Made by a program: the position numbers and the translations under genes | Notes under the pieces: model-generated | The model's database searches: none | Told to the model about the DNA's origin: nothing | The model's input: only the letters and a program-made list of their open reading frames with translations | In this document: piece by piece, positions 16,934-32,163 of the stretch | How the letters are laid out: every line of letters starts with the position of its first letter | Numbering within the stretch: position 1 is the first letter of the stretch | NCBI GenBank assembly: GCA_024398875.1 | Contig: JAKSIJ010000001.1 | Location: 310,001-374,000, forward strand | Length of the DNA stretch: 64,000 bases | Reading direction: 5' to 3' | Source: Fibrobacter sp. | GTDB taxonomy: Bacteria; Fibrobacterota; Fibrobacteria; Fibrobacterales; Fibrobacteraceae

Positions 16934-17034
16934 AGAACTTCCTTGCATTTATTCCGTCATAAAATAAAAAATTATTGCACTAAGCATCCTTTCTCGCTAT
17001 ATCATCCTAAACATTTTTAAATTAGTTCCACGTG

Positions 17035-18258
17035 ATGCGGATAAAAAAAATCGTTTTATTATTGTTTTCTTCTTTAGGATTCATCAGCTGCGTATGGGAA
17101 AGCAACGACAACTCCCAGAATTTTCTTCCTTTAGATGATTCCGAATACCCCTACGCAGGCATACCAAGGCTTGCAATTGAAACAGAAGATTTTCTTGAAA
17201 TCCGAAACAAAAAAGACGAAATCCCGGCAAAACTACAAATATATGGTGAAAACTCTCCCTTAAGTAACATACTATACCTAACCGTACGGGGCAGAGGAAA
17301 TTCCAGTCTCACCATGTCAAAATATGGCATGAAGCTCGAATTTGACGACAAACAGTCTCTATTTGGAATGCCTCCCGATAGAGACTGGGCGCTCATCGCC
17401 AATCATGCCGATAAAACCCTCCTAAAAAATTACATCAGCTTTAAAATTGCGCAGTGGCTCAATTTGGACTACACTCCCCACGGCGTCTTCGTAGAACTTT
17501 ATTTCAATCGAGATTATAAAGGGCTTTATTTACTCACAGAAACCATCAAGGTTTCCAAGAACCGTGTTGACCTTTCCAAAAGTACGGAAAACTACCTCAT
17601 TGAAGTAGATAAAAAATATGACCCTGACAACCAAATTGTTTTCTCCCAAAGTGGGCTTTCCTTTAGAATTAGATATCCTAAAATCATTGACTCTACAAGA
17701 TTAGTCCATGTTCAATCTTTTCTCAATCAATGGGAATCATATATGTCCGGAGACATTGACTATGACACCCTAGACCAAAAATGGATTGATGTGGCAACCT
17801 ACTCCAAATACTACTGGGTTGAAGAATTCGCAAAAAATATTGACAATAACTTTAACACCAGCGTATACTTTTCCTGGAAACCCGGAGAAAGCATGCACTT
17901 TGGACCAGTATGGGACTTTGACTTGAGCTATGGTGGGTATAAAGTTCTAGAAGCAGAAGGCTGGTACTTGCGATGGAACAAATGGAACAAGCACCTATTT
18001 AAGAATCAAAAGTTCACAAAAAAAATTAAGGATTACTGGATAAAAAACCGAAATGTATTTATTGCAGCACAGGACTCCCTCAAGATTTACCAACAAGAAA
18101 TTCATAAAGCGGCTGAAAACAATTTTAAGCGTTGGCCTATTCTGGGGTCCACCTTTTTATGGGAATTTTCACAGGGATACAAAAGTCACGATGAAGCGGT
18201 AGACTCCTTGAGAAACTGGATGCAACAGCGTACCATATGGATAGATAAGCACCTATAA
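17035..18258 (+). CDS. CotH-family lipoprotein (copy 1)
   Basis: 407 residues from the ATG at 17035, immediately after an in-frame GTG. Lipoprotein signal with Cys about residue 19 (GFISCVWE). The rest fits the CotH family (spore-coat H, atypical protein-kinase-like fold; members are also found in non-spore-formers with surface or cellulosome proteins). Visible blocks are VRGRGNSSLTMSKYGMKLEF, DRDWALIANHADKTLLKNYI, YKGLYLLTETIKV and FGPVWDFDLSYGG, which carries the metal-binding DFD. The last codon overlaps the start of the next gene by one base (TAATG). The downstream neighbour is a paralogue. It is the first gene of the polysaccharide operon; target and role are unknown. Confidence 0.88.
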   Translation: MRIKKIVLLLFSSLGFISCVWESNDNSQNFLPLDDSEYPYAGIPRLAIETEDFLEIRNKKDEIPAKLQIYGENSPLSNILYLTVRGRGNSSLTMSKYGMKLEFDDKQSLFGMPPDRDWALIANHADKTLLKNYISFKIAQWLNLDYTPHGVFVELYFNRDYKGLYLLTETIKVSKNRVDLSKSTENYLIEVDKKYDPDNQIVFSQSGLSFRIRYPKIIDSTRLVHVQSFLNQWESYMSGDIDYDTLDQKWIDVATYSKYYWVEEFAKNIDNNFNTSVYFSWKPGESMHFGPVWDFDLSYGGYKVLEAEGWYLRWNKWNKHLFKNQKFTKKIKDYWIKNRNVFIAAQDSLKIYQQEIHKAAENNFKRWPILGSTFLWEFSQGYKSHDEAVDSLRNWMQQRTIWIDKHL

Positions 18259-19487
18259 TGAAAAGGATATTTTCAGTTTTATTCGCTTTTTTGCTATGCG
18301 GTTTATGGGCCTGTGTATGGGAAAACCCTTCTAATGACATTACATTTTTACCGCTGGACGATTCTGAGTATCCCTATGCCGAAGTTCCCCGCCTAGTAAT
18401 CGAGACTGAAGACCTTCAAGAGATTCGAAATCGAGAAGATAAAATCCCCGCAAAATTGCAGATCTATGGTGTAGAATCCCCAAGCAGCAGCGTCCTAGGT
18501 ATAACCATCAAAGGTCGAGGTTTTTCATCCTTTGAAATGCCCAAGTATAGCTACAAAATTGAATTTAATGAAAAAATTTCCCTATTTGATTTTCCCAAAA
18601 ATCGCGACTTCGTGCTTATTGCAAATTTTAGGGATAAAAGTCACCTCAAAAATTTTATCACATACAAACTAGCGAATAATTTAGGAGATGATTTTTCACC
18701 TAAATCTAAATTTGTAGAATTATATCTTAATCGGAAATACGAGGGATTATATCTGTTGACTGAAAGCATTAAAGTTGGGAATCAGCGCGTCAAAATCGCT
18801 AAAAATGACTCCAGTTTTCTATTCGAAAAAACTACGCCTCCCAGTAATCGCCCCTCTTTCCAAACATCGAACAAGAATCTCTTTGAAATACGCTATCCAA
18901 AAGATGTTTCTCAACAATCGTTCAACCTTCTGAAAAATCATATTAACTCTTTTGAACTTCTTATCAAAAACAATGCTACTCTCTCCCTAGATTCTTTAAA
19001 TCAATGGTTGGATATTGACGATTTTATCCGCTATTACTGGATTCAGGAATTTTCTAAAAATTATGATGGTCGTTTTTTGCGTAGTATTTTATTAACCTGG
19101 GAAAAAGGAGGCCCCATAAAAATGGGGCCCGTTTGGGATTTTGACCTTGCCTATGGGATTCACAGAACTGGGACATCAACTCCCGAAGGATGGCTCATTA
19201 GAGATTCTGGATGGAATAAGTGGCTATGGAAGAACGATGCATTTGCAAAAAAAGCCCAATTGTACTGGAGAAATAACTATCCAAAAATTGAGTTTATGAC
19301 GGATTCCATAGAAACCTTTGGCAAGCTCATTCAAAGGGCCATAAAAAACGACAACAAACGTTGGCCCGTTCTCAACACCAGTGAAAATAAATATCACGAA
19401 ACATCCTATGAATCCTACCTTGATGCTATTGATTCCTTAAAGGCATGGTGTTCACAGAGAAGCAAGTGGATTGATAGCCATTTATAA
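18258..19487 (+). CDS. CotH-family lipoprotein (copy 2)
   Basis: 409 residues, paralogue of the gene before it, with the same plan: lipoprotein signal ending LWACVWEN, then PLDDSEYPYAEVPRLVIETE, IKGRGFSSFEMPKYSYKIEF, NRDFVLIANFRDKSHLKNFI, YEGLYLLTESIKVG and MGPVWDFDLAYG. The two copies differ at many positions, so the duplication is old. The kinase-type residues (DFD, and Asn/Asp in LIANFRDKS) are kept in both. The next gene is the flippase, so both CotH proteins are tied to the polysaccharide cluster. They might modify or anchor surface material, but this is inference from position. Confidence 0.88.
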   Translation: MKRIFSVLFAFLLCGLWACVWENPSNDITFLPLDDSEYPYAEVPRLVIETEDLQEIRNREDKIPAKLQIYGVESPSSSVLGITIKGRGFSSFEMPKYSYKIEFNEKISLFDFPKNRDFVLIANFRDKSHLKNFITYKLANNLGDDFSPKSKFVELYLNRKYEGLYLLTESIKVGNQRVKIAKNDSSFLFEKTTPPSNRPSFQTSNKNLFEIRYPKDVSQQSFNLLKNHINSFELLIKNNATLSLDSLNQWLDIDDFIRYYWIQEFSKNYDGRFLRSILLTWEKGGPIKMGPVWDFDLAYGIHRTGTSTPEGWLIRDSGWNKWLWKNDAFAKKAQLYWRNNYPKIEFMTDSIETFGKLIQRAIKNDNKRWPVLNTSENKYHETSYESYLDAIDSLKAWCSQRSKWIDSHL

Positions 19488-19502: not shown

Positions 19503-20948
19503 ATGCCTTCAAAACGCACCATCATTTCTTCGTTGATTTGGAAGTTTCTTGAACGAGTTGGGACCCAGTTCGTGCAATTTGTGGTTTCCATTGTTTTAGC
19601 AAGAATCTTAGCACCAGAAGAATTTGGGCTAATCGCCATCATTACCATATTTATTGCCATTGCAAATGTTTTTGTGCAAAGTGGGCTAAATACGGCTCTA
19701 ATTCAAAAGAAAGATGCCGACGACTTAGACTTCTCCTCGGTATTTTATGCCAGTTTTATCATAGCATCCATCGTCTATGCCCTACTCTTTTTCACCTCAC
19801 CACTGATTGCAAATTTTTATAACAATGACAGGCTTATCCCCGTAATACGCGTATTAGCCCTTTCTCTCTTTATCGGAGCAATTAATTCCATTCAACTGGC
19901 ATATATCTCCCGGAATATGATGTTCAAAAAGCTTTTCATTAGAAGCATCGGAGCCATCATTCCTTCGGGTGTTATCGGCATAATCCTCGCCGCTTGTGGT
20001 TTTGGCGTGTGGGCTCTCGTCACACAGCAACTAACCAATTCACTGCTCGCCGTCGCCGTGATGTGGTTCACCGTACCTTGGAGACCTAAATTATCGTTCT
20101 CCTTCCAAAGACTAAAAGGCTTATTTACCTTTGGCTGGAAATTACTTTGCTCTTCTCTTCTAGATGCATGCTATCACAACATTAGAGGACTCATTATCGG
20201 AAAAATCTTTACTCCGGCAGATTTGGCGTTTTATAACCGAGGAGAACATTTTCCAAATTTAGCCGTCAACAACATCAACAATTCCATTCAATCCGTGATG
20301 CTGCCATCTCTTTCTGCCATACAAGATGACAAAACGAAGGTAAAGGGGCTCATGCGAAAAGCAATCATTACAAGCTCTTTTCTCATTGCACCTATGATGA
20401 CAATACTCGCAGCAACAGCCAAAACGCTTGTATTGGTTTTACTTGGTGAAAAATGGCTTCCCTGCGTTCCTTTTATAGTGATTTACTGTTTTATATTCTG
20501 TTTTTATCCAATTCATACATCCAATCTCTCTGCAATTAATGCCCTTGGCAGGAGCGACATTTTTCTCAAGCTTGAAATCATCAAAAAAATATATGGTGTA
20601 GGCCTACTCATAGCAAGTCTCCTCTATTTCAGAACCCCCGTAGGAATTGCCATCGGAGCAGCTTTTGGGACGCTCATTAGCTGTTTTGTAAATGCCCACC
20701 CAAATAAAAAATTGCTTGACTACGGCTATCTTGAACAAATCCGAGATATTTTACCCAATCTAGGGTTGTCCTTAATTGCTGGAGCATGTGTCTATGCCCT
20801 AGGCACTCTAGATACGAACATCTATTTGCTGTTTATTTTACAGGCCATTCTCGGTGTAATCGTGTATTTTGGCCTTGCCAAATTGCTACATTTTAAATGT
20901 TTGGACTACCTTATCCAAACTATCAAAGGATACCATCATGGCCGATAA
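19503..20948 (+). CDS. Wzx/WzxC-type polysaccharide flippase
   Basis: 481 residues from the ATG at 19503; AAGGAA abuts it with unusually short spacing, so an in-frame TTG at 19494 remains possible. It belongs to the MOP/MATE polysaccharide exporter group (WzxC-like). The N-terminal VGTQFVQFVVSIVLARILAP and EEFGLIAIITIFIAIANVFV blocks are typical. About 12-14 hydrophobic helices span the protein, with the characteristic central FTFGWKLLCSSLLDACYHN and FYNRGEHFPNLAVNNIN segments. It should flip lipid-linked repeat units across the inner membrane. Its last 11 bases overlap the aminotransferase gene. Confidence 0.9.
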   Translation: MPSKRTIISSLIWKFLERVGTQFVQFVVSIVLARILAPEEFGLIAIITIFIAIANVFVQSGLNTALIQKKDADDLDFSSVFYASFIIASIVYALLFFTSPLIANFYNNDRLIPVIRVLALSLFIGAINSIQLAYISRNMMFKKLFIRSIGAIIPSGVIGIILAACGFGVWALVTQQLTNSLLAVAVMWFTVPWRPKLSFSFQRLKGLFTFGWKLLCSSLLDACYHNIRGLIIGKIFTPADLAFYNRGEHFPNLAVNNINNSIQSVMLPSLSAIQDDKTKVKGLMRKAIITSSFLIAPMMTILAATAKTLVLVLLGEKWLPCVPFIVIYCFIFCFYPIHTSNLSAINALGRSDIFLKLEIIKKIYGVGLLIASLLYFRTPVGIAIGAAFGTLISCFVNAHPNKKLLDYGYLEQIRDILPNLGLSLIAGACVYALGTLDTNIYLLFILQAILGVIVYFGLAKLLHFKCLDYLIQTIKGYHHGR

Positions 20949-22050
20949 GCAAATTACAGTCACTTCTCCCCTTCTTCCCGACTTGGAGGAATTCATCCCC
21001 ATGCTTCGGGACATCTGGGACCGCAAGTGGCTTACCAACAACGGCCATTACCATAAAGAGTTAGAAAAGGCACTGGCAGATTACCTAGGTGTGCAATATA
21101 TTAGTCTCTTTACAAATGGCACTTTGCCTCTCATCACCGCCCTGCAAGCCCTTGAAGTTAGAGGTGAGGTGATTACCACGCCCTATAGTTTTGTCGCTAC
21201 GACACACTCTATTTGGTGGAATGGTTTAAAACCCGTATTTGTGGATGTAGAAGAAAAGACTGGAAATATTGACCCCGAAAAAATTGAAGCGGCCATTACT
21301 CCTAGAACCACCGCCATTATGCCCGTTCATGTCTATGGAACGCCTTGCGACACAAAACGTATTCAAGAAATTGCCGATCAACATCATTTAAAGGTCATCT
21401 ACGATGCCGCCCACGCCTTTGGAGTCCAAGTAAACAGGGAATCCGTCCTAAAGCATGGCGACATGAGCACCCTTAGTTTTCACGCAACAAAGGTTTATAA
21501 TACCATTGAAGGTGGGGCACTTGTATGCCACGATGAAGCCATAAAAAAACACATTGACTATTTGAAAAACTTTGGCTTTGCCGGTGAAACAACAGTTGTC
21601 GCCCCAGGTATTAACAGCAAAATGGATGAAATCCGTTCCGCATACGGGCTACTTAATTTAAAACAGGTGGATAAAGCCATCGCTCAACGCAAACGCATTG
21701 CCGAAATCTACCGTCAAGGGCTAAAAGATGTGGCTGGGATAAGGATGCTGGAGGATGTTGAAAATGTCCGGCACAACTATGCCTATTTTCCCATTTTCAT
21801 TAATGAAGAATATAGCATCAGTCGTGATGCACTTTATGCAAAACTAAAAGAGCACAATATTCTCGGTAGGCGCTACTTCTACCCCCTCATCAGTAGTTTT
21901 GATTCTTATAAGAATCTGGATTCTGCAAATCCGGCAAATTTGCCTATCGCCAATAAATTAGCAGACCAGGTGCTATGTTTGCCGATGTTTGCCACCCTGA
22001 CAGACGAAGACATCTATAGAATCATTGATATCGTTTCAACAATGAAATAA
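20938..22050 (+). CDS. DegT/DnrJ/EryC1/StrS sugar aminotransferase
   Basis: 370 residues from the ATG at 20938, with AAGGA upstream and overlapping the flippase end. PLP-dependent transaminase that turns a nucleotide 4-keto sugar into a 4-amino sugar (the same reaction type as WecE or FdtB). PLP lysine is K185 in SFHATKVYNTIEGGALV; other family blocks are FTNGTLPLITALQAL, TTPYSFVATTHSIWWNGLKP, AIMPVHVYGTP and VIYDAAHAFGV. The 4-amino product is supported by the downstream GT56 gene, because that family transfers TDP-Fuc4NAc in enterobacteria. No sugar dehydratase is in the window; it must be encoded elsewhere. Confidence 0.92.
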   Translation: MADKQITVTSPLLPDLEEFIPMLRDIWDRKWLTNNGHYHKELEKALADYLGVQYISLFTNGTLPLITALQALEVRGEVITTPYSFVATTHSIWWNGLKPVFVDVEEKTGNIDPEKIEAAITPRTTAIMPVHVYGTPCDTKRIQEIADQHHLKVIYDAAHAFGVQVNRESVLKHGDMSTLSFHATKVYNTIEGGALVCHDEAIKKHIDYLKNFGFAGETTVVAPGINSKMDEIRSAYGLLNLKQVDKAIAQRKRIAEIYRQGLKDVAGIRMLEDVENVRHNYAYFPIFINEEYSISRDALYAKLKEHNILGRRYFYPLISSFDSYKNLDSANPANLPIANKLADQVLCLPMFATLTDEDIYRIIDIVSTMK

Positions 22051-22068: not shown

Positions 22069-22971
22069 ATGAACAGTATGGACCAAACAAGAGCATTTCT
22101 CCAATCCATCGGCATGCCGAAAGGTGACGCCTATGATTTACCTACCTCAGAGAAGCGTTTCTCTGACGGCGGACAATATCGTTTTGAAGTCCCCGGCATT
22201 CAGGGCCCCAAGGTCATGGAAGCCCTTCTGGAGGCCATGGACAAATATGGCATTTGGCTCCATCGTGTGACCCAGACCAAAGGCATCATGATGCTTGCAG
22301 ACCAGGACATCATGCAGATGGTTGATTTGGCCAAGAAGGCTCAAGTTGAATTGATTCTCGCTATAGGCCCGCGAGCAACTACTGACACCAGCGCCTCTGT
22401 GAATACTCCGGAAGGTGTACGCATGGGTTATCGTCTTCGTGGGCAGGAACAAATCATCCGCGCCATTGAAGACGTTAAACGTGCCGCAAGCTTCGGATGT
22501 CGTTCTTTCCTCGTATACGACGAAGGTTGTCTGTGGGTCTTAAACGAAGCTCGAAAGGCAGGCGAAATTCCGGCAGATTGTCGCTTCAAAATCTCCGCTC
22601 ATGCAGGGCACGGCAATCCCTGCTCGGCGAAACTCCTCGAGTCCATCGGAGCCAATTCTGTCAATCCTGTCCGCGACATCCAATTGCAGATGCTGGCCGC
22701 CATGCGTCAAGCCATCAACATTCCTATAGACATCCATACGGAAAACCCGAAGTCTACCGGCGGATTCATACGTCATTATGAAGTTCCTGAGATGATTCGC
22801 ATTGCCTCTCCCATCTACCTGAAAACAGGGGGATCCGTCGCCCAGACTCACAGTTGGGACAGCACCGAAGACGATGCGAAGAAACGCGCCAAGCAGGTTT
22901 CCTTAGTCAAGCGCATGATCGATTGCTATTATCCAGAAGCCATCCAATCCCCCAAGGGAAGCATCAAGTAG
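22069..22971 (+). CDS. TIM-barrel-like protein, possibly U32-peptidase-related
   Basis: 300 residues, soluble, with AAGGA 9 bases upstream. Repeating beta-alpha blocks (VELILAIGPRA, SFLVYDEGCLWVL, RFKISAHAGHGNPC, NIPIDIHTENPKSTGGF, PIYLKTGGSVA) point to a TIM barrel. The SAHAGHGNPCSAKLL and DIHTENP segments could form the active site. The general look is that of peptidase-U32-like barrels, several of which are not peptidases, but I cannot place it firmly. It lies between the aminotransferase and the ATP-grasp gene with 17-18-base gaps, so a role in making or attaching the acyl group of the sugar is plausible. Confidence 0.65.
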   Translation: MNSMDQTRAFLQSIGMPKGDAYDLPTSEKRFSDGGQYRFEVPGIQGPKVMEALLEAMDKYGIWLHRVTQTKGIMMLADQDIMQMVDLAKKAQVELILAIGPRATTDTSASVNTPEGVRMGYRLRGQEQIIRAIEDVKRAASFGCRSFLVYDEGCLWVLNEARKAGEIPADCRFKISAHAGHGNPCSAKLLESIGANSVNPVRDIQLQMLAAMRQAINIPIDIHTENPKSTGGFIRHYEVPEMIRIASPIYLKTGGSVAQTHSWDSTEDDAKKRAKQVSLVKRMIDCYYPEAIQSPKGSIK

Positions 22972-22988
22972 GATTCAAGTCATCAATT

Positions 22989-24230
22989 ATGGCAGATAAG
23001 AAAGTCGCATTGGTACTTGGCGGAACCGTACCGCACATAAGTTTGGTCAAAAAACTTAAGGACCGCGGTTTCTATGTAATCCTTTTAGATTACCTCGACA
23101 ATCCTCCCGCTAAACAATATGCCGATGAGCATATCAAGGAAAGCACTCTTGATAAGGACGCCGTTCTTACTATCGCCAAAATTCGGAATGCACAGCTAGT
23201 CATCAGCACATGTATCGATCAAGCAAACAGCACGTGTTGTTATGTTGCAGAGAAACTGGGCCTAGCACATCCATACAGCTATCAAACATCTCTAGACGTT
23301 ACTGATAAAGGTCGCATGAAAAAAATCATGTGCGAAAAAGGCATTCCCACATCTTCCTACACCTTAGTGAAATCTATAGAAGAAATCAACTGGTCTGAAA
23401 TTTCATTCCCAGCAGTCGTCAAACCTGTTGATTGCAACAGTTCTAAAGGCGTTCACCGAGTTGATTCTCAAGAGGAAACTAAGAATCGCGTTCAAGAAGC
23501 TCTTGAACTAAGCCGGACAAAGACCGCCATTATCGAAGGTTATAACCAGGGGTTCGAGATTCAAGTTGATTGTGTCTCGACAAGCGACGGAGTTAAAGTC
23601 GCACTAACCCGGCAGAAGCAAAAAATCATCGGTCAAGAGCATTCCATGGTTCTGCAATCCTATGGTTCTATTTTCCCGGCTCCCTTATCGGACGCACTTA
23701 GCCAGCAAGCCCAAGAAATCGCAAAAAAAATCGCTGATGCCTTTGACCTCAAAAATACACCTTTTTTCTACCAAGCAATAGTCACCAAAAATGGCATCCA
23801 AGTTCTGGAATTCGCGCCTCGCATAGGAGGAGGATTGAGCTATTATGTACTCAAGGCCTTCGCCAACTACGACGCGGTTGAGTGCGCCATAGATTCTTTT
23901 ATGGGAATAGATATCTCCGTCACTCCTACTAAACAGGAATTAATGCATTCAACCAACATCATCTACATGAAGCCAGGAGTTTTTGACCACATTGAAGGGT
24001 TAGAGGAACAAAAGGAAAAAGGCAATCTTTCTGAATTTTTCATCTCCAAAGAAAAAGGATCCGTTGTAGATGCGGACATGCGTAGTTCTAATCGCATTGC
24101 CTCCTTTATTGTTGAAGGCTTTTCTTACGAGGAAATAGCCAAAAAAGCCGCAACAGTTTTCTCAAAAATAAAAGTTCTTGACCCCAATGGGATCTCCCTG
24201 TTAAACAAATCCATTTATCCATTGGTTTAA
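22989..24230 (+). CDS. ATP-grasp carboxylate-amine/thiol ligase
   Basis: 413 residues from the ATG at 22989; longer in-frame versions only add out-of-family sequence. Family: ATP-grasp ligases, which activate a carboxylate as acyl-phosphate and join it to an amine or similar nucleophile. Evidence: an N-terminal preATP-grasp domain (LVLGGTVPHISLVKKLKDRG, ILLDYLDNPPAKQYAD), the DKGRMKKIMCEKGIPTSSY loop, the ATP-binding PAVVKPVDCNSSKGVHRV, IIEGYNQGFEIQVDC, and the metal-binding VLEFAPRIGGGLSYYVLKAF. The acceptor may be the amino group produced by the DegT enzyme and the donor the acid made by the neighbouring enzymes; this is inference. Confidence 0.85.
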   Translation: MADKKVALVLGGTVPHISLVKKLKDRGFYVILLDYLDNPPAKQYADEHIKESTLDKDAVLTIAKIRNAQLVISTCIDQANSTCCYVAEKLGLAHPYSYQTSLDVTDKGRMKKIMCEKGIPTSSYTLVKSIEEINWSEISFPAVVKPVDCNSSKGVHRVDSQEETKNRVQEALELSRTKTAIIEGYNQGFEIQVDCVSTSDGVKVALTRQKQKIIGQEHSMVLQSYGSIFPAPLSDALSQQAQEIAKKIADAFDLKNTPFFYQAIVTKNGIQVLEFAPRIGGGLSYYVLKAFANYDAVECAIDSFMGIDISVTPTKQELMHSTNIIYMKPGVFDHIEGLEEQKEKGNLSEFFISKEKGSVVDADMRSSNRIASFIVEGFSYEEIAKKAATVFSKIKVLDPNGISLLNKSIYPLV

Positions 24231-24237
24231 GCGCACC

Positions 24238-25371
24238 ATGAAGCATCATCAGTACAACCCAAATTTTAAATTTGTGAAGGATCCAATAGACTTCAACAAG
24301 TATACAGATCGCAGCCTTTTGCAGTACTGCCTTGGCGCCACAATGTATATGCCGGGCACCAAGGACTTTGCCCAAGCCATTATTGACAAAAAATATCCTG
24401 GGCTCACCTCCATGGTGATGTGCTTTGAAGATGCATGCAAGGAAGAAGATGTCCCCGCAGCAGAAGTTAACTCCATCCATGTTTTAGAGACTCTTGAAGA
24501 AAAAGTAAATAGTGGAGAACTAGCCTATGAAGACATTCCCCTCATCTTTTTCCGCGTTAGAAGTGTCGAGCAGTTTAAGCACTTTGCTTCTATGCTAGAG
24601 AAGAAGCATGTCAAATATATCACTGGCTTTAACTTTCCAAAGTTTAACGCCCTATGCGCCCGCGACTACATGGAACATCTTGTTGAACTAAACAAGACGT
24701 TTGGAGAAATCATCTATGGTATGCCTATTATTGAAGATGCGCGCGTAGCCTTTAAAGAAACACGTGTCCAGGAACTAATGGCCATAAAGAACATAATGGA
24801 TGATTACAAAGATCTCATTTTGAATGTTCGTGTGGGCGGGACCGATTTTTCTAGCTGTTTTGGTGTTCGCCGGGGGATCAACTACACGATTTACGATATC
24901 ATGACCGTTCGGGATTGTTTAATGGACATTTTAAACGTATTTACCCGAAATAATGATTATACCGTTTCTGGGCCTGTCTGGGAATACTTCCGCGTTAATA
25001 AACGTATGAAATTTGAGAATTTGCCTAAAGTAGATATCCAGGATACCCTTCTCAAACGCACCCCTGTTGTTAACGATGCAGTAGATGGTCTAATGCGAGA
25101 GTTGATTCTAGATCAGGCAAATGGATTTATGGGAAAGACGTGTATTCATCCAACCCACTTAAATTTCATCAACGGAATGCTCGCCGTCACTAAAGACGAA
25201 TACGATGACGCCTATCAAATATTACACACTTCTGGTGGAGTTATCAAAGGCAGCAAAGGGATGAATGAAATCAAGCCCCATACCAATTGGGCCACAAAAA
25301 TCATGATGCGCGCCGAAGCATATGGTGTTATTGAATCTGAAAAGAGCTATGTAGAACTTTTTGGAGTATAA
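24238..25371 (+). CDS. CitE-like / HpcH-HpaI TIM-barrel C-C bond lyase
   Basis: 377 residues. It resembles the citrate-lyase-beta/HpcH group, and most closely the C-C bond lyase subgroup (PF15617) known from tellurite-resistance-associated biosynthetic clusters. Seen: LGATMYMPGTKDFAQAIIDK near residue 33, TSMVMCFEDACKEEDV (metal-binding Glu/Asp), GMPIIEDARVAFKETR, VRVGGTDFSSCFG and GFMGKTCIHPTHLNF, the usual C-terminal GKxxIHP motif. Such enzymes make or break a C-C bond next to a carboxylate, often with a CoA thioester or a keto acid. There are 7 bases after the ATP-grasp gene, so the two should act together. Confidence 0.82.
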   Translation: MKHHQYNPNFKFVKDPIDFNKYTDRSLLQYCLGATMYMPGTKDFAQAIIDKKYPGLTSMVMCFEDACKEEDVPAAEVNSIHVLETLEEKVNSGELAYEDIPLIFFRVRSVEQFKHFASMLEKKHVKYITGFNFPKFNALCARDYMEHLVELNKTFGEIIYGMPIIEDARVAFKETRVQELMAIKNIMDDYKDLILNVRVGGTDFSSCFGVRRGINYTIYDIMTVRDCLMDILNVFTRNNDYTVSGPVWEYFRVNKRMKFENLPKVDIQDTLLKRTPVVNDAVDGLMRELILDQANGFMGKTCIHPTHLNFINGMLAVTKDEYDDAYQILHTSGGVIKGSKGMNEIKPHTNWATKIMMRAEAYGVIESEKSYVELFGV

Positions 25372-25447: not shown

Positions 25448-26599
25448 ATGACAACTGAGCAGCAATTGATTTTGGCCCCAAATCAAAACGCAACCTCGAA
25501 CGTCAGGTTTTCTAATATTGAGCTATTTCGCATCATCGTAATGCTCTGCATTATTGCACATCACTATGTAGTAAACTCTCCCTTATTTGATGCTAGTGGG
25601 CCACTTTTTTCAAACCCAACAACATCAAATTCAATATTTTACTTGTTATTCGGTATGTGGGGCAAAACAGGCATTAATTGTTTTGTCATGATAACCGGAT
25701 TTTTTATGTGTACATCAAGCATTTCAATAAAAAAGTTTTTGAAACTTTACTTTGAGGTTAAATTTTTTAGATACATAATCTGGGTTATTTTTATTCTCAC
25801 TGGAGCTTCTGTTTTTTCCGTGACTAAAAGTATCAAAATGTTGTTCCCCTTTTCTAATATATCTAATAGTTTTACAAATGCTTTTCTTGCATTCTACCTA
25901 TTCATTCCATTTTTAAATACCCTTATCAAAGGGTTGGATAAGAGCAAACATTCCATTCTAATTATTCTTTCAACCCTAATTTATTCAGGCTTTTATCAAC
26001 TTCCAGGATTTCATATTTCTTACAACTATTTATCCTGGTTCATTATTCTTTATTTCATTTCCTCTTATATTCGTCTCTACGGCATTTACAAAAACAATAG
26101 CGTTTCTTTTTGGGGTTTGATGTCATTACTTTCAATCATTGCATCTATTGGCTCAGTTCTAATATGCATAAAAACGAACCATTCACCATATCTATTTGTA
26201 GGCGAATCCCTTGCGTTTATGAGTGTGCTCACAGCCATTTCTACGTTCATCTTCTTTAAAAATCTAAAAATCGGCTACAGCAAAATCATCAATCTAATTG
26301 GATCAACCACATTTGGTGTATTTTTAATACATACCTGTGGGCAAGAAATGCGGTCTTTTCTATGGATTAGGCTCCTTGATGTCAATGGTCATTATTCCGA
26401 TTCTCATTATGTACTATACGCATTTACATGTGTTCTCCTTATTTTTACTATATGCAGCATCCTAGATTTAATAAGAATGTATTTGTTTGAAAAGCCACTA
26501 TTTAAGGTTCTTGATAAAAAACTAGGAAAATATAAATTGTATAGTGGACCAACAAAAAATACAGCTAGAAACAACTTCAGCAAAATTTTTAAGGATTAA
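25448..26599 (+). CDS. Acyltransferase-3 family membrane protein
   Basis: 383 residues with about 10 hydrophobic helices. N-terminal NIELFRIIVMLCIIAHHYV contains the R/H pattern of acyltransferase-3 (OafA/WecH-like) enzymes. These transfer acetyl or other acyl groups to sugar hydroxyls on exported glycans. Further family-like stretches are GKTGINCFVMITGFFM and FGVFLIHTCGQEM. The gene is markedly more AT-rich than its neighbours and follows a 76-base gap, the largest in the operon, so it may have been inserted separately. It ends 4 bases before the dehydrogenase. Confidence 0.88.
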   Translation: MTTEQQLILAPNQNATSNVRFSNIELFRIIVMLCIIAHHYVVNSPLFDASGPLFSNPTTSNSIFYLLFGMWGKTGINCFVMITGFFMCTSSISIKKFLKLYFEVKFFRYIIWVIFILTGASVFSVTKSIKMLFPFSNISNSFTNAFLAFYLFIPFLNTLIKGLDKSKHSILIILSTLIYSGFYQLPGFHISYNYLSWFIILYFISSYIRLYGIYKNNSVSFWGLMSLLSIIASIGSVLICIKTNHSPYLFVGESLAFMSVLTAISTFIFFKNLKIGYSKIINLIGSTTFGVFLIHTCGQEMRSFLWIRLLDVNGHYSDSHYVLYAFTCVLLIFTICSILDLIRMYLFEKPLFKVLDKKLGKYKLYSGPTKNTARNNFSKIFKD

Positions 26600-26603
26600 C
26601 GAT

Positions 26604-27578
26604 ATGCCAAAAATTCTTCACACTGCTCGTTATGTCGATGAACCTTGGAGAATTCTCAAGAGCGTTACTCCAAATGGCTTTGAAGTTAAAACTCTTGATG
26701 AACCGACTCATGAATGTCTTGTCCACGAAGCGAGCGATGCAGACTACTTTTTAGTCAGCGGACGTCTTACCATTGACGAGGAAGTTCTCTCTGTGGCAAA
26801 GAAATTAAAGATGATCCAACGTACCGGTGTTGGCATTGAAATGCTTGACAAAGAGTCAATCAAAGCTAGGAACATTCCCGTCTATGTCAATGCAGGAGTC
26901 AATGCCCGAAGTGTTGCCGAACATGCGCTCACTCTGATGCTCTCCTGTTTAAAGAGAATCACCATCATTGACAAGCAAGTTCGCAACGGTATTTGGAAAA
27001 AACAAATAACGGGTGTTTCCTGCCACGAACTTTACGGCAAAACTGTCGGGCTTGTGGGCATGGGGGCCATTGGACGTTTGGTTGCAGGCTACCTAAAATG
27101 TTTCGGCGCCAAGGTTCTATACACTGACTTATTCCGGCAAAGCGATTCTCAAGAAAAAGAACTAGGAACCTCTTTTGTAAAAAGCTTTGAAGAACTATTA
27201 CCTCAAGTGGATATTCTTTCTTTTCATTGCCCTCTAACCGACACGAATAAAGGGTTCTTCAACGAGGATGCCATCGCATTGATGAAAGACGGAGCTATCG
27301 TTGTGAACACGGCGCGGGGAAAACTCATTGACGATGGCGCTCTTTGCAAAGCTCTCCAAAGCGGAAAATTGCGGGCTGCTGGCCTAGACGTTCACTACGA
27401 AGAACCCATGCCGGCCAACGACCCCCTCAAAAATTTAGATAATGTTATTCTCTCCCCCCATATTGCGGGACTTTCTTTTGAAAGTTTCCACACAATGATG
27501 GAAGATGCCATCAAAAATATTGTAGCTTTTGAAAGTGGAAACCTAGATTCCATCAAAGACAAGATTTTGAAATGGTAA
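26604..27578 (+). CDS. D-isomer-specific 2-hydroxyacid dehydrogenase
   Basis: 324 residues from the ATG at 26604, with AAGGA 9 bases upstream. NAD(P)-dependent reduction of a 2-keto acid to a 2-hydroxy acid, or the reverse. The NAD fold is clear: [20 protein letters not shown]. The catalytic Arg lies in [14 protein letters not shown], Glu in the [13 protein letters not shown] block and His in [12 protein letters not shown]. The first 100 residues form the substrate domain ([37 protein letters not shown]). It resembles phosphoglycerate dehydrogenase without a regulatory C-terminal domain. In this cluster the substrate is more likely the carboxylic acid being assembled than 3-phosphoglycerate, but that is inference. 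Confidence 0.9.
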
Positions 27579-27582
27579 CTTC

Positions 27583-28269
27583 ATGGATATCATCAAGAAT
27601 TCATTTTTAGCTAAAACCGCCAAAACATATAAAGATGTCAAGATTGTGGACTCCACTATTGGAGAGTATTCCACCATAGGCGACAATTCAAACCTTCTAA
27701 AGACAGTATTAGGAGACCATGTCGCCATCAACAGGAACTGCACCCTCGACCATTGCAACATGGATTTTGGAAGTTACATCAATCAAAATACCACTTTAAA
27801 AAATGTTGATATCGGAAAGTTTTGTTGTATTTCTTGGAACGTGTGTTTGTACGGGGGGTCTTCCCATAACTATTCCTCACCTTCCATGTACACTGCTTAC
27901 CACTGGAAACAGATTTTTGGATCTTCTATATCTGATTCGACCAAAGAAAAATCGCGGGCCACTATTGGAAATGATGTTTGGATTGGCAATGGCGCCATCG
28001 TAATCAATGGCGTTACGATTGGAGATGGAGCTATTATTGGAGCAGGCGCGGTCGTTACAAAAGACGTTCCTCCCTATAGCGTTGTCGCGGGCGTCCCTGC
28101 CAAAATCATCAAAAAGCGGTTTGATGACACCATCATCCAGCGCTTACGGAAAATTCAGTGGTGGAATTGGCCTAAGGAAACTATTTCTAAAAATGAAGCC
28201 CTCTTAAGAGTTACTCCCGTTACTGAGGATTCTTTATCCCTATTGGAAAGGATTGCTGCTGAACGATGA
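27583..28269 (+). CDS. Hexapeptide-repeat acyltransferase (LbetaH)
   Basis: 228 residues with left-handed beta-helix hexapeptide repeats throughout: [22 protein letters not shown] early, and [19 protein letters not shown] and [20 protein letters not shown] later, the latter typical of CatB/xenobiotic-type and sugar O- or N-acetyltransferases. The catalytic His is probably in [11 protein letters not shown]. It would add an acetyl or similar group to the sugar or to its acyl side chain. The stop overlaps the PrpD-like gene (ATGA). Confidence 0.88.
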
Positions 28270-29624
28270 CTGATTTATTTCTAAAAAATATTCTATCCAT
28301 TAATCCCTCTAAGATACCCAGCGGCGTCTACCTCGAGGCTCGCATCTGTTTTCTTGATTACCTAGCATGTTCCTGCGCAGGAGCATTCTATTTTGCCGCT
28401 AAAGAAAGAGATTTCATAAAAAGTAGCGGCAGCGGCGGAAATGACCATTTTTCGACCCTTTTGAGCCTGAACTGTAGATCCAATCCTCAAATCGCCGCCC
28501 TCATAAATGGTTTAAATTCTCATGTTTTAGAACTTGATGACGGGCATCGCCAAGGAGCCATCCATGTAGGTGGAGCAATTTTTTCTGCATTACTAGCCAT
28601 TGCAGAAAAAGAAAAAATTAACGAAAGAGATTTTCTATATGCAGCAATCATTGGTTATGAGGTTTCAATCCGTCTAGCCTGCGCAATGCAACCCGGGAAC
28701 AAATTGCGTGGTTATCATGCGACAGGCACTTGCGGAACATTGGGAGCAACTGTAGCCATAGCTATTGCCATGCACTTTGATTTTGATCAAATGAAATCCG
28801 CACTTTCCGCTGCAGTAACAAGTGCTGCTGGAATTCTTGAAATGCAGGAAGACGACTCCGACATGAAACCCTTGAATGTCGGCAGAGCAGCTATGGATGC
28901 CATCGCAGCAGCGTATCTTGGGAAAGCTCGCTTTAAGGCGCCAAAGGATGCCCTTGGTGGCAAGCGCGGATTCCTTAAAGTCATGACGGATGAAGCAAAA
29001 ACTTCATTCCTTACCGATTTTTCGTCTGGCACATTTGCAATCCAGCAAATTTATCGAAAAACTTATGCAGCATGCAGACACGCCCATCCTGCTATTGAAG
29101 CCGCGCTAACGCTGCGAAACAATGTCATTGATAGTTTAGGATTACTGAAACCCATCAAATCTATTGAAGTAGAAACATACAAGCTCGCTATTGGCGGACA
29201 TGATCATAAAGATATTTCAAGCGTAAGCTCCGCAAAAATGAGCATTCCCTTCAGTGTCGCTTTGGCACTATATAAAGGAAATGCCGGGATGGGGGCGTTT
29301 ACGGAAGAGAATATCAATACACCTCAAATTCTCAAGCTTACCCAAAAAATTTTTATCAGCGAAAACAAAAAACTTTCAGATCTCTCTCCTCAAAAAAGAG
29401 CGGCAATCCTACATATTACATTAGAAGACGGAACCGTCTTCTCACAGCAGGTCGATTACCCCAAGGGGGAACCTGAAAATCCGTTAAGCAAAGAGGAATT
29501 CAAACAAAAATTCATTGAACTTATGAGGATTTCGGGCATAAGTAAAGAAAAATGCGAAAAAATTCTTCTAAGTGCATATAACAACAATTTTTCCATCTCC
29601 GAAATTTTAAGCCTTCTGAGTTAA
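28266..29624 (+). CDS. MmgE/PrpD family protein
   Basis: 452 residues, normal length for the family. PrpD is 2-methylcitrate dehydratase; other members are cis-aconitate decarboxylase (CAD, itaconate producer) and uncharacterised enzymes. Seen: [17 protein letters not shown] near the start, [20 protein letters not shown] followed by [19 protein letters not shown] (the LDDGH...H region near the active site), [38 protein letters not shown], and a C-terminal lid domain with [17 protein letters not shown]. The family dehydrates or decarboxylates tricarboxylic acids, so this fits a 2-methylcitrate-, aconitate- or citramalate-like intermediate. It sits inside a sugar operon rather than a prp locus. 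Confidence 0.88.
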
Positions 29625-29628
29625 AAGT

Positions 29629-30138
29629 ATGATCCACCTTACCACCCCCATCAGCGAAGAAGATATTGCCAAATTACAGGTCGGCGATGTAGTTTCTATT
29701 TCTGGCGATATTTTTTGTGGCAGAGACGCCGTACTTCCAAAAGTATGCAAATTGATTGAGGAAAAACGGCTTTCTGAAAAAGGAATCAACCTCCAAGGTT
29801 CCGTCATGTTCCATACGGCAGTGAGCCCCGCAGGAATCGGCCCGACATCCAGCAATAAGGTGGAAATTGAAGGAAGCTTTGAAGCCCTCTCTAAAGCAGG
29901 ATTGAAGATTCACCTAGGAAAGGGAGCCATCTCTCAGAATACCATAAACGCCATCAGCAAACTCAACGCCGTCTATGCGATCATTCCCCCAGTAACAGCA
30001 CTTTTGGGCAGCAAGACCTCGGATATTGAAATCGCCGCTTACCCAGAACTAGGAATGGAAGCTCTTCATAAAGTGCATGTTTCCGAATACCAAGCAATCA
30101 TCGCTGCAGCTCAAGGTAGAAGCATCTATGACAAATAA
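29629..30138 (+). CDS. Class I fumarase/tartrate-dehydratase-like beta subunit
   Basis: 169 residues, the size of the separate beta subunit (TtdB/FumB-C-terminal domain) in two-subunit Fe-S hydro-lyases. It starts LTTPISEEDIAKLQVGDVVS, the usual opening of this domain, and keeps the SGDIFCGRDAVLPK loop, with FCG in place of the more common YTA. The remainder, NLQGSVMFHTAVSPAG through LGKGAISQNTINAISKL, is also family-like. It provides part of the substrate site and pairs with the following gene, whose start overlaps it by 11 bases. The order beta-alpha is the reverse of E. coli ttdA-ttdB. Confidence 0.88.
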   Translation: MIHLTTPISEEDIAKLQVGDVVSISGDIFCGRDAVLPKVCKLIEEKRLSEKGINLQGSVMFHTAVSPAGIGPTSSNKVEIEGSFEALSKAGLKIHLGKGAISQNTINAISKLNAVYAIIPPVTALLGSKTSDIEIAAYPELGMEALHKVHVSEYQAIIAAAQGRSIYDK

Positions 30139-30994
30139 TATCAATATGAATGAAGTCATTGAAAAGGTTGCCGCCACCTTGGTCACTGCAGGTTCCACTT
30201 TTAGGGAAGACCAGAAGGAAGCCTATCGTCGCGTTATCGCGAGCGAAAAAATGGAGAGTTCCTGCTGGGTGATGCAGCAAGTGCTGGAGAATGCAGAAGT
30301 CGCCGAGAAAAGCCGAGGACCTCTTTGTGACGACACCGGCATTCCTCATGTTTTTATTGAAGTCGGTCCAAACCGCGCTCTCACAGGCGCTTTAATGCAG
30401 AGCATCAAAGCGGGAATTCGTGAAGGCCTCCGGCGACTGCCGGGCCGCCCCATGGCTGTGATGGGTGACGACTATGCAAGAATTGACCAAAGTAGAGGAC
30501 TGGATCCAGATTCCGGAGCCCTCCTTCCCTCACCCTTCCTCGTCAAGGAAGTTGACGAAGATATTTTGCGCGTGACAATCCTGATGCTAGGGGGTGGCCC
30601 AGCAATCCGCGGCATCACACAGCGCGTTTTCCATCGCCATGATGTTTCTATAGTCATTGATGAAATCGTGAAAAGGGCTGTAGAAGGAGTAAAAAATCTA
30701 GGATGTTCCCCTTGTACACTGGCCGTCGGCATTGGTCGCAGTCAATTTGAAGCGACAAGTCTCATGATGGAAGCTATGGCCAAAGGTAATTACGACGTCC
30801 AGTCCGAATTTGAACAAGAAATCACCCAAAAGGTCAACGAAGCAAATGTAGGTCCTCTAGGACTTGGTGGCAAAACGAGTGTACTTGCAACATTTGCAAA
30901 AATTGGGCCCCAGCGGGCCAGCGGTGTACGCATTGTAGCTCTTCGCCCCTGTTGTTGCTTTGAACCTCGTCGAGCCAGTGTAGAAATCGACTAA
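30128..30994 (+). CDS. Class I fumarase/tartrate-dehydratase-like alpha subunit (4Fe-4S)
   Basis: 288 residues from the ATG at 30128. Alpha subunit of a 4Fe-4S hydro-lyase (TtdA/FumA N-terminal domain). Candidate cluster cysteines are all present: C67 in PLCDDTGIPHVF (others have CQDTG), C193/C196 in NLGCSPCTLAVGIG and the C275-C277 run in ALRPCCCFEPRRASV. The RR after the last cysteines and the GGGPAIRG and GIGRSQFEAT segments are typical. Class I enzymes can use fumarate, mesaconate or tartrate, so hydration or dehydration of a dicarboxylate is expected. The substrate here is unknown; the partner is the beta gene just before. Confidence 0.88.
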   Translation: MTNNINMNEVIEKVAATLVTAGSTFREDQKEAYRRVIASEKMESSCWVMQQVLENAEVAEKSRGPLCDDTGIPHVFIEVGPNRALTGALMQSIKAGIREGLRRLPGRPMAVMGDDYARIDQSRGLDPDSGALLPSPFLVKEVDEDILRVTILMLGGGPAIRGITQRVFHRHDVSIVIDEIVKRAVEGVKNLGCSPCTLAVGIGRSQFEATSLMMEAMAKGNYDVQSEFEQEITQKVNEANVGPLGLGGKTSVLATFAKIGPQRASGVRIVALRPCCCFEPRRASVEID

Positions 30995-31008: not shown

Positions 31009-32163
31009 ATGAAATTAAAGCTCATTCATATTTGCAATGATGAAAAGTTCATCGATGCGGCCATTAATCAATTTGCCACCTTTGAAATGGTGGAATCGTT
31101 TTTTTTCATCATCGCAAAGAACCGAAGAGTTTCTCTCGTCAAAAACATTAATTCAAACGTCATCATTTTTGGCACAATTCAAGAAGCCGTGCAAAAGGCA
31201 AACGCATCCGACGCCCACGCTGTTGTCCTCCATAGTATTTTCTTCCGGATTTCAGACCTGTCCAAACTGAAAACGCCAATTATTCTTTGTTGTTGGGGGA
31301 AAGAAACCTATTACGACATCAACGACAACGAAAAAAAAATAATCCTTTTAAATTTATACAAACCTAAAACAAGAACCTTATTACAAACAGCAAAATCAAA
31401 TCGCCCATTAATTGAAAAAATCAAGAGTTTTATAAAAAAATTCGGAATTTATCAGTTGCGTAATCGACAGTATAAACATTTTTTCCAAAAACTCATTGCG
31501 ATATCTACAGTTCTTCCGGAAGAATTCGCTTTAATAGGCCATCCTGAAAAAATGCGATTCCCTTTGCGCTACATGAGTTTAAAGCCACAGCGGAGAACTA
31601 TACAGACTCGGAACCGAGCAGAAGGAACCACACCTCGCATTTTAGTGGGGAACAGCCTCAACGCGACGAACAACCACGCAGATATTCTTGAAAAGTTCAA
31701 CTCTCTAGGAAAAAAAATCGAGGTCGTTCTCCCCATCAGTTATGGCGGTAAAGAACCCTATAAAAAAGCCCTTAAGGAATTTGTATCTCATCTTGAAAAT
31801 ATTATTCCCATATATCTAGATTCTTTTATGGAGCGAATAGAATATCAAAAGATATTAGATTCCTGCGATGCAGCTATTTTCGGACATATTCGACAGCAAG
31901 CCGTGGGAAATATATCTTACATGATTTCTTATGGATATAAGGTTTTCTTATACAAGGAATCTGTATGCTATCAACATTTCAAAAATCTCGGCTGCACTAT
32001 TTTTACTATAGATGACGATTTAGAGAAGGAATTTGACCATCTTACCCTGGACAAAACCTCCGCTCAAAAAAATAACGATTTATGGTTTAATGATAAAGAT
32101 CCGCAAAAATATATTCAATCTATGCACATCTTCTTCGAAAACCTAGAAAAGGCAATCCGTTAA
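31009..32163 (+). CDS. WecF/GT56-like 4-amino-sugar transferase
   Basis: 384 residues. In enterobacteria, WecF transfers TDP-4-acetamido-4,6-dideoxygalactose to lipid II of the common antigen. The match here is to the second half: LVGNSLNATNNHADILEKF near residue 215, VVLPISYGGKEPYKKALKEF, and SCDAAIFGHIRQQAVGNISY near 300, all close to the pattern of GT56. The first half is much less conserved. Codon use is AT-rich. It is the last gene of the rightward operon, and its expected donor agrees with the DegT aminotransferase at the front. Confidence 0.75.
   Translation: MKLKLIHICNDEKFIDAAINQFATFEMVESFFFIIAKNRRVSLVKNINSNVIIFGTIQEAVQKANASDAHAVVLHSIFFRISDLSKLKTPIILCCWGKETYYDINDNEKKIILLNLYKPKTRTLLQTAKSNRPLIEKIKSFIKKFGIYQLRNRQYKHFFQKLIAISTVLPEEFALIGHPEKMRFPLRYMSLKPQRRTIQTRNRAEGTTPRILVGNSLNATNNHADILEKFNSLGKKIEVVLPISYGGKEPYKKALKEFVSHLENIIPIYLDSFMERIEYQKILDSCDAAIFGHIRQQAVGNISYMISYGYKVFLYKESVCYQHFKNLGCTIFTIDDDLEKEFDHLTLDKTSAQKNNDLWFNDKDPQKYIQSMHIFFENLEKAIR

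Follow-up and report, generated by a model that had tools for sequence, protein, structure and literature searches.

The FumBA gene pair and its neighbours

The window is a 64,000-nt stretch of DNA from Fibrobacter sp. (contig JAKSIJ010000001.1, positions 310,001 to 374,000), and contains a pair of overlapping genes, here called FumBA, that resemble the two subunits of a class I hydro-lyase. The pair and its neighbours are as follows, in window coordinates.

20938..22050, + strand: DegT-family sugar aminotransferase that may supply the amino-sugar acceptor (TIGR04427, DesI-like, 313 bits, under the 650 cut-off)
22069..22971, + strand: U32-like TIM-barrel protein, conserved in cassette relatives
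22989..24230, + strand: ATP-grasp ligase with an L-amino-acid-ligase C-terminal domain, candidate amide-bond former (PF18603, 33 bits vs 29.4; ATP-grasp families)
24238..25371, + strand: CitE-like C-C bond lyase with a predicted malyl/citramalyl-CoA-lyase-like fold (PF15617, 384 bits)
25448..26599, + strand: membrane acyltransferase (Acyl_transf_3, PF01757), a frequent neighbour
26604..27578, + strand: D-2-hydroxyacid dehydrogenase, the hallmark of subtype A (PF02826, 203 bits)
27583..28269, + strand: hexapeptide-repeat acetyltransferase, a variable neighbour (PF00132)
28266..29624, + strand: MmgE/PrpD-family enzyme, the constant partner (PF03972, 171 bits; PF19305, 137 bits)
29629..30138, + strand: FumB-like beta subunit of a class I hydro-lyase, 169 aa (PF05683)
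30128..30994, + strand: alpha subunit of a class I hydro-lyase, 288 aa, with 4Fe-4S cysteines (PF05681)
31009..32163, + strand: WecF-like glycosyltransferase (Glyco_transf_56, PF07429, 43.7 bits vs 25), polysaccharide context

The beta gene runs from an ATG at 29629 to a TAA at 30138, and the alpha gene from an ATG at 30128 to a TAA at 30994. In Pfam profile searches, beta scores 77.7 bits against PF05683 (cut-off 22.2) and alpha 166.9 bits against PF05681 (cut-off 25). As read in the DNA, the alpha ATG lies within the final codons of beta, so that the genes overlap by 11 bases (30128-30138); the overlap is 4 bases in the homologue from a second Fibrobacter genome (G007). Alternative in-frame ATGs for alpha occur upstream at 30077, which is the start in the mechanical ORF list, and downstream at 30146; comparison with homologues points to 30128 or 30146 as the start. 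Both domains of the class I (4Fe-4S) superfamily and the three cluster cysteines of alpha are present, and on this sequence evidence the pair is a two-subunit class I hydro-lyase with a predicted 4Fe-4S cluster and predicted hydro-lyase activity. Chance open reading frames are ruled out by the Pfam scores, the 50 relatives and the fixed gene order described below. A previous sequence-only reading of this DNA had reported two complete subunits, the 11-base overlap and adjoining PrpD and CitE homologues, all of which are found here; the last two correspond to the MmgE/PrpD gene at 28266-29624 and the PF15617 gene at 24238-25371. It had overlooked the U32-like barrel, the D-2-hydroxyacid dehydrogenase, the ATP-grasp ligase and the existence of two subtypes.

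Glycosyltransferase, flippase, aminotransferase and nucleotide-sugar genes surround the cassette in the window and in most relatives, and in G007, too, an Acyl_transf_3-family acyltransferase adjoins FumBA. The polysaccharide block (16000-40000) has a G+C content of 37-45%, versus 43-53% in most of the flanking sequence, and this lower value would fit a locus that is mobile or was acquired recently. Upstream of the flippase, at 17032-19487, are two similar tandem genes resembling CotH-type lipoproteins (recognised by eye).

Relatives and phylogeny

Relatives were sought in 84,980 species genomes with two peptide patterns, a search that will miss divergent members and that found 51 loci, nearly all from rumen/gut Bacteroidales, with 61-81% identity. 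The 50 relatives of the window alpha, most of which are MAGs, come from Bacteroidales of the gut, a second Fibrobacter and two MAGs of Lachnospiraceae. The window alpha is ~27% identical to ordinary split fumarases. The class I tree that the sequence-only reading had proposed was built by a quick method, which leaves the long rows TtdA, PsMPC6 and L011 unsurely placed; in it the cassette alphas form a single branch (SH-aLRT 100) with all fused and split references outside, so that the window enzyme groups separately, together with other members from polysaccharide loci. Gene order separates the same groups, since beta precedes alpha in 48 of 48 cassette loci and alpha precedes beta in all 34 ordinary split references where both were found; the beta-alpha order, earlier described as the reverse of ttdAB, is also the reverse of that in the ordinary split enzymes compared.

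Within the phylum, a close copy occurs in only one other genome, that of G007, which belongs to the same genus (77% identity), and the other split class I enzymes found there are ~23-30% identical to the window sequence. The two Fibrobacter alphas do not group in the tree; that of G007 pairs with one from Bacteroidales, a sign of possible transfer from one gut lineage to another. No relative is encoded on viral contigs, and the phage and plasmid matches listed are ordinary split enzymes with 22-29% identity.

Besides the window copy, the genome that contains the window (G000; 2.78 Mb, 99% complete) has one further PF05681 gene, which encodes a fused class I fumarase of 544 aa on a different contig. 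No class II fumarase in this genome reaches its model cut-off; the fused enzyme is thus likely to be the housekeeping fumarase and the window pair an extra. The equivalog models for fumarate hydratase are missed by alpha/beta (PRK06246, 114 vs 276 bits; PRK06842, 87 vs 238; PRK06043, 57 vs 269), as are those for L-tartrate dehydratase (PRK08230, 66 vs 365; PRK08228, 74 vs 264), and only TIGR00722 is narrowly passed (107 vs 100.65 bits). A housekeeping role is ruled out by the fused enzyme elsewhere together with the separate branch. These two observations, neither a place in the housekeeping clade nor a genome lacking any other fumarase, also support the earlier proposal of a dedicated step outside central metabolism.

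Active-site positions

Cys67, Cys193 and the run Cys275-277 of alpha align with the three cysteine positions that are common to FumA, TtdA and split fumarases. Cys67, Cys193 and Cys276 occur in 51 of 51 cassette alphas (Cys275 and Cys277 in 50 of 51). The sequence-only reading had likewise noted all cysteine positions for a 4Fe-4S cluster in the window alpha. The DTG motif is also kept, as are Arg32, Thr73 and Lys98 of beta.

Three segments that FumA, TtdA and split fumarases have in common are replaced in all cassette sequences. The RH segment of alpha becomes QR (Q262-R263), RDxxH of beta becomes RDAVL (L36), and GPTTxxR of beta becomes GPTSSNK (S74, K77); L36, S74, N76 and K77 are fixed in 49 of 49 cassette betas. 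These positions are ones that we take to lie around the substrate in class I fumarase structures. Our reading of the alignment is that the cassette enzyme has retained the cluster and has an altered pocket.

Composition of the cassette and its two subtypes

Gene counts refer to the 34 loci whose 10-kb flanks are complete, where a gene missing within 10 kb is not necessarily missing from the genome. All 34 have an MmgE/PrpD gene, 26 have the PF15617 lyase and 23 the U32-like gene. The loci fall into two subtypes: subtype A, to which the window belongs, is marked by the D-2-hydroxyacid dehydrogenase (19/34), and subtype B by a thiamine diphosphate (TPP) enzyme of phosphonopyruvate-decarboxylase type (12/34). 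The two markers never occur together (0/34), and three loci have neither. Prevotella sp. khp7 (L051) is a cultured carrier of subtype A. An aldo-keto reductase accompanies the TPP enzyme in 11 of 12 loci, versus 0 of 19 loci with the dehydrogenase, and the identity of the lyase to that of the window separates the subtypes cleanly (78-92% versus 53-56%). The alphas of the two subtypes are interleaved in the tree, and so the hydro-lyase probably performs the same step in both.

The core genes of the window recur at the G007 locus in a different order, which indicates that their association exceeds inherited synteny. Ligase families differ between cassette loci. We found no description of a cassette of this kind in the literature, and apparently it has not been previously described as part of polysaccharide loci.

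The partner enzymes

Names such as PrpD are used for the partners as family names, and the functions are predicted. Among solved structures, the MmgE/PrpD protein scores 114 bits against Bacillus subtilis MmgE, 91 against IDS epimerase and 85 against cis-aconitate decarboxylase, versus ~26 against 2-methylcitrate dehydratase. It is 23% identical to Escherichia coli PrpD and fails the 2-methylcitrate dehydratase PrpD equivalogs (49 vs 575, 41 vs 950 and 38 vs 458 bits). These low scores weaken the case for 2-methylcitrate-type chemistry in the strict sense, and with it the earlier suggestion of 2-methylaconitate as the likely substrate. The protein retains the conserved 1,4-dicarboxylate-binding residues of characterised MmgE/PrpD members (PMC12290011), namely H86, D91/D92, H100, H151, K201 and K265, and its Lys146 aligns with Tyr145 of IDS epimerase, the second base of the epimerases. 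Its reaction may be a decarboxylation instead of a dehydration.

Sequence matches of the PF15617 lyase to solved lyases are weak, and its model has a mean pLDDT of 71 with a weak C-terminal third. The model is nearest to human CLYBL and malyl-CoA lyases (Z 18-19 over ~260 residues, aligned to residue 364), versus Z ~12 over ~185 residues, to residue 302, for class II pyruvate aldolases (HpaI); for the (S)-citramalyl-CoA lyase 8khl, Z is 15. The lyase is also 42-48% identical to lyases of two plasmid operons (L106, L107), where the neighbours are phosphoribosyltransferase and StiP genes and, in L107, TerD genes.

The U32-like protein is 96% identical in G007 and 71-96% across cassette relatives. 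In its window form it has no match in Pfam or NCBIfam, and its distant homologues match Peptidase_U32 weakly. Searches of PDB sequences gave chance matches only. Its model, of modest quality (pLDDT 68), matched numerous TIM barrels in fold searches at Z 11-12, and none stood out. Family members occur in the window (22069-22971) and at L105:11986-12921 and L102:12001-12933. An operon on an Enterobacter chuandaensis plasmid contains a homologue whose neighbours are, once more, a D-2-hydroxyacid dehydrogenase and an aminotransferase, along with two haem-oxygenase-like proteins.

The subtype B TPP enzyme exceeds the cut-off of the phosphonopyruvate decarboxylase equivalog (387 vs 312.5 bits); genes above this cut-off are found at L081:8360-9481 and in 17 other cassette loci. 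PEP mutase (TIGR02320) was found neither in the window genome nor in any of the 17 subtype B genomes searched, bearing in mind that MAGs are incomplete. The annotation may therefore mislead, or the substrate may differ.

A proposed pathway and its alternatives

We tentatively propose that FumBA is the dedicated 4Fe-4S hydratase/dehydratase of a biosynthetic cassette for surface polysaccharide, and that, together with the MmgE/PrpD enzyme, it converts a substituted malate that the CoA-lyase-like protein supplies; we rate this at slightly below an even chance. The substrate and product of FumBA, like everything here beyond family assignment and co-occurrence, are what we infer. In the scheme, the PF15617 lyase would condense an acyl-CoA with a 2-oxo acid to form a substituted malate. 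Its dehydration and re-hydration by the MmgE/PrpD enzyme and the Fe-S hydro-lyase, each of a family whose substrates are 1,4-dicarboxylates, would then shift the hydroxyl group as aconitase or isopropylmalate isomerase does, and the isomerised product would be converted to a 2-oxo acid. In subtype A, and so in the window, the D-2-hydroxyacid dehydrogenase would reduce the 2-oxo acid to an (R)-2-hydroxy acid; in subtype B, the 2-oxo acid would be decarboxylated and the resulting aldehyde reduced. Lastly, the ATP-grasp ligase may link the acid by an amide bond to an amino sugar from the DegT aminotransferase. The skeletons on which the lyase, MmgE/PrpD and class I families work are all of the malate or succinate type. 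We consider this scheme the simplest, and there is precedent for the proposed end product in the amide-linked (R)-malate and (R)-2-hydroxyglutarate of Bacteroidota O-antigens (PMC3210612). Several points count against it: no cassette enzyme clearly provides the oxidation to the 2-oxo acid, 8 of the 34 loci have no detected lyase and 11 no U32-like gene within 10 kb, the ligase families differ between loci, and the MmgE/PrpD enzyme may be a decarboxylase.

A more far-reaching form of the proposal is that this is a new pathway: a homologue of class I fumarase would, jointly with an MmgE/PrpD enzyme, take the place of the aconitase-type isomerase, and the 2-oxo acid would feed two interchangeable tailoring modules that yield unrecorded glycan substituents in rumen/gut Bacteroidales and Fibrobacter. 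Its subtype B module would comprise an enzyme of the phosphonopyruvate-decarboxylase family acting on a non-phosphonate, and the aldo-keto reductase. We regard this form, its subtype B module included, as doubtful.

Unlikely, to our mind, is a series of successive steps without an isomerase pair, in which the MmgE/PrpD enzyme is of the cis-aconitate-decarboxylase type, FumBA hydrates an itaconate- or mesaconate-like C5 acid and the lyase works in the citramalyl-CoA direction. The scores of the MmgE/PrpD protein, nearer to cis-aconitate decarboxylase and IDS epimerase than to 2-methylcitrate dehydratase, would fit this, as would the resemblance of the modelled lyase fold to 8khl and the fact that class I enzymes are commonly mesaconases (PMC4682846). 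However, the best match of the MmgE/PrpD protein is to B. subtilis MmgE, for which the reaction is not established (PMC12290011), and the motif positions of FumBA are unlike those of mesaconase-active fumarases.

We give rather less weight still to a small diffusible metabolite or cofactor-like compound as the product of the cassette, in place of a glycan substituent. The Ter-linked operons, which have the same lyase and ATP-grasp families, offer a parallel; the similarity of the lyase to those beside plasmid phosphoribosyltransferase, StiP and TerD genes points this way, and U32-like relatives exist outside polysaccharide loci. Against it stands the setting of the cassette, which in most relatives, as in the window, consists of genes for glycosyltransferases, flippases, aminotransferases and nucleotide sugars.

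That FumBA is an ordinary fumarase, mesaconase or tartrate dehydratase, located in a sugar locus by chance, is improbable. The class I fold, the cluster cysteines and Arg32 and Lys98 of beta are kept and TIGR00722 is passed, but every fumarase and tartrate dehydratase equivalog cut-off is missed by far, the enzyme has its own branch with a fused fumarase elsewhere in the genome, and the reversed gene order, constant cassette and uniform motif changes all speak against it.

A phosphonate route through PEP mutase is rejected on the 0/17 count, and we think it very improbable that phosphonopyruvate or sulfopyruvate is made with the participation of FumBA and without PEP mutase. In favour of such a route, the TPP enzyme passes the decarboxylase cut-off, that same count would suit it, and Segatella copri carries aepX-aepY-reductase in a sugar locus. 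Against it, the other core enzymes come from carboxylic-acid families, the U32-like barrel matches no known family, the nearest AepY on a plasmid shares only 42% identity, and the count is affected by the incompleteness of MAGs.

Implications and comparison with known systems

The gene set, common to dozens of rumen/gut Bacteroidales, probably builds an unusual acid for the decoration of surface sugars. A conserved cassette with modular endings is revealed in surface-polysaccharide loci of the gut and rumen, and a coherent role is proposed for a branch of Fe-S hydro-lyases that annotation would name fumarase. If the chemistry is as proposed, the glycan alphabet gains new acids, scores for phosphonopyruvate decarboxylase need not signify phosphonates, and caution is needed before cassette genes are tallied as TCA-cycle enzymes in metagenomes.

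Several known systems share parts of the cassette. The Ter-linked operons have the same PF15617 lyase family, with 42-48% identity to the plasmid-borne members, but in those examined the neighbours are phosphoribosyltransferase, StiP and TerD-type genes, whereas the cassette has MmgE/PrpD and FumBA; among the window genes scanned, no TerD-family, StiP or phosphoribosyltransferase gene was noticed. The phosphonate loci with aepX-aepY-reductase (Segatella copri plasmid, L110) resemble subtype B in having the decarboxylase family and a reductase within a polysaccharide locus; in subtype B, however, no PEP mutase was found and the reductase is an aldo-keto reductase, while the phosphonate operon is without the cassette core. 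The itaconate/methylsuccinate cluster of Pseudomonas and Cupriavidus (PMC12290011) pairs an MmgE/PrpD enzyme with citramalyl-CoA lyase, as the cassette may do, but it is catabolic and has no class I hydro-lyase, and the cassette enzyme has Lys146 at the position of the isomerases' second base. Aminobacter plasmid pUSP2 (L096:1-4388) has genes for an ordinary split class I hydro-lyase next to those for a CoA ester lyase, a CaiB-type CoA transferase and an SDR, and this cluster is possibly another pathway that combines a hydro-lyase with a CoA lyase.

The methylcitrate cycle (PrpC, PrpD, AcnB, PrpB) follows the logic proposed here: a condensation, then dehydration by a member of the MmgE/PrpD family, and finally re-hydration with an Fe-S enzyme. 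The cassette differs in having a CoA-lyase-like protein in place of citrate synthase, a class I hydro-lyase in place of aconitase, and a product that would be destined for glycans. Fused FumA, as in E. coli and the likely housekeeping copy of Fibrobacter, has the same domains and cysteine positions as the cassette pair, but in one chain with alpha before beta, and acts in central metabolism. TtdAB and the split class I fumarases and mesaconases are like the cassette in their two separate class I subunits, three cluster cysteines and expected oxygen-sensitive chemistry. Their genes are ordered alpha-beta rather than beta-alpha, and the cassette pair is set apart by its ~27% identity, its replaced RH (alpha), RDxxH and GPTTxxR (beta) motifs, and its location in a glycan locus.
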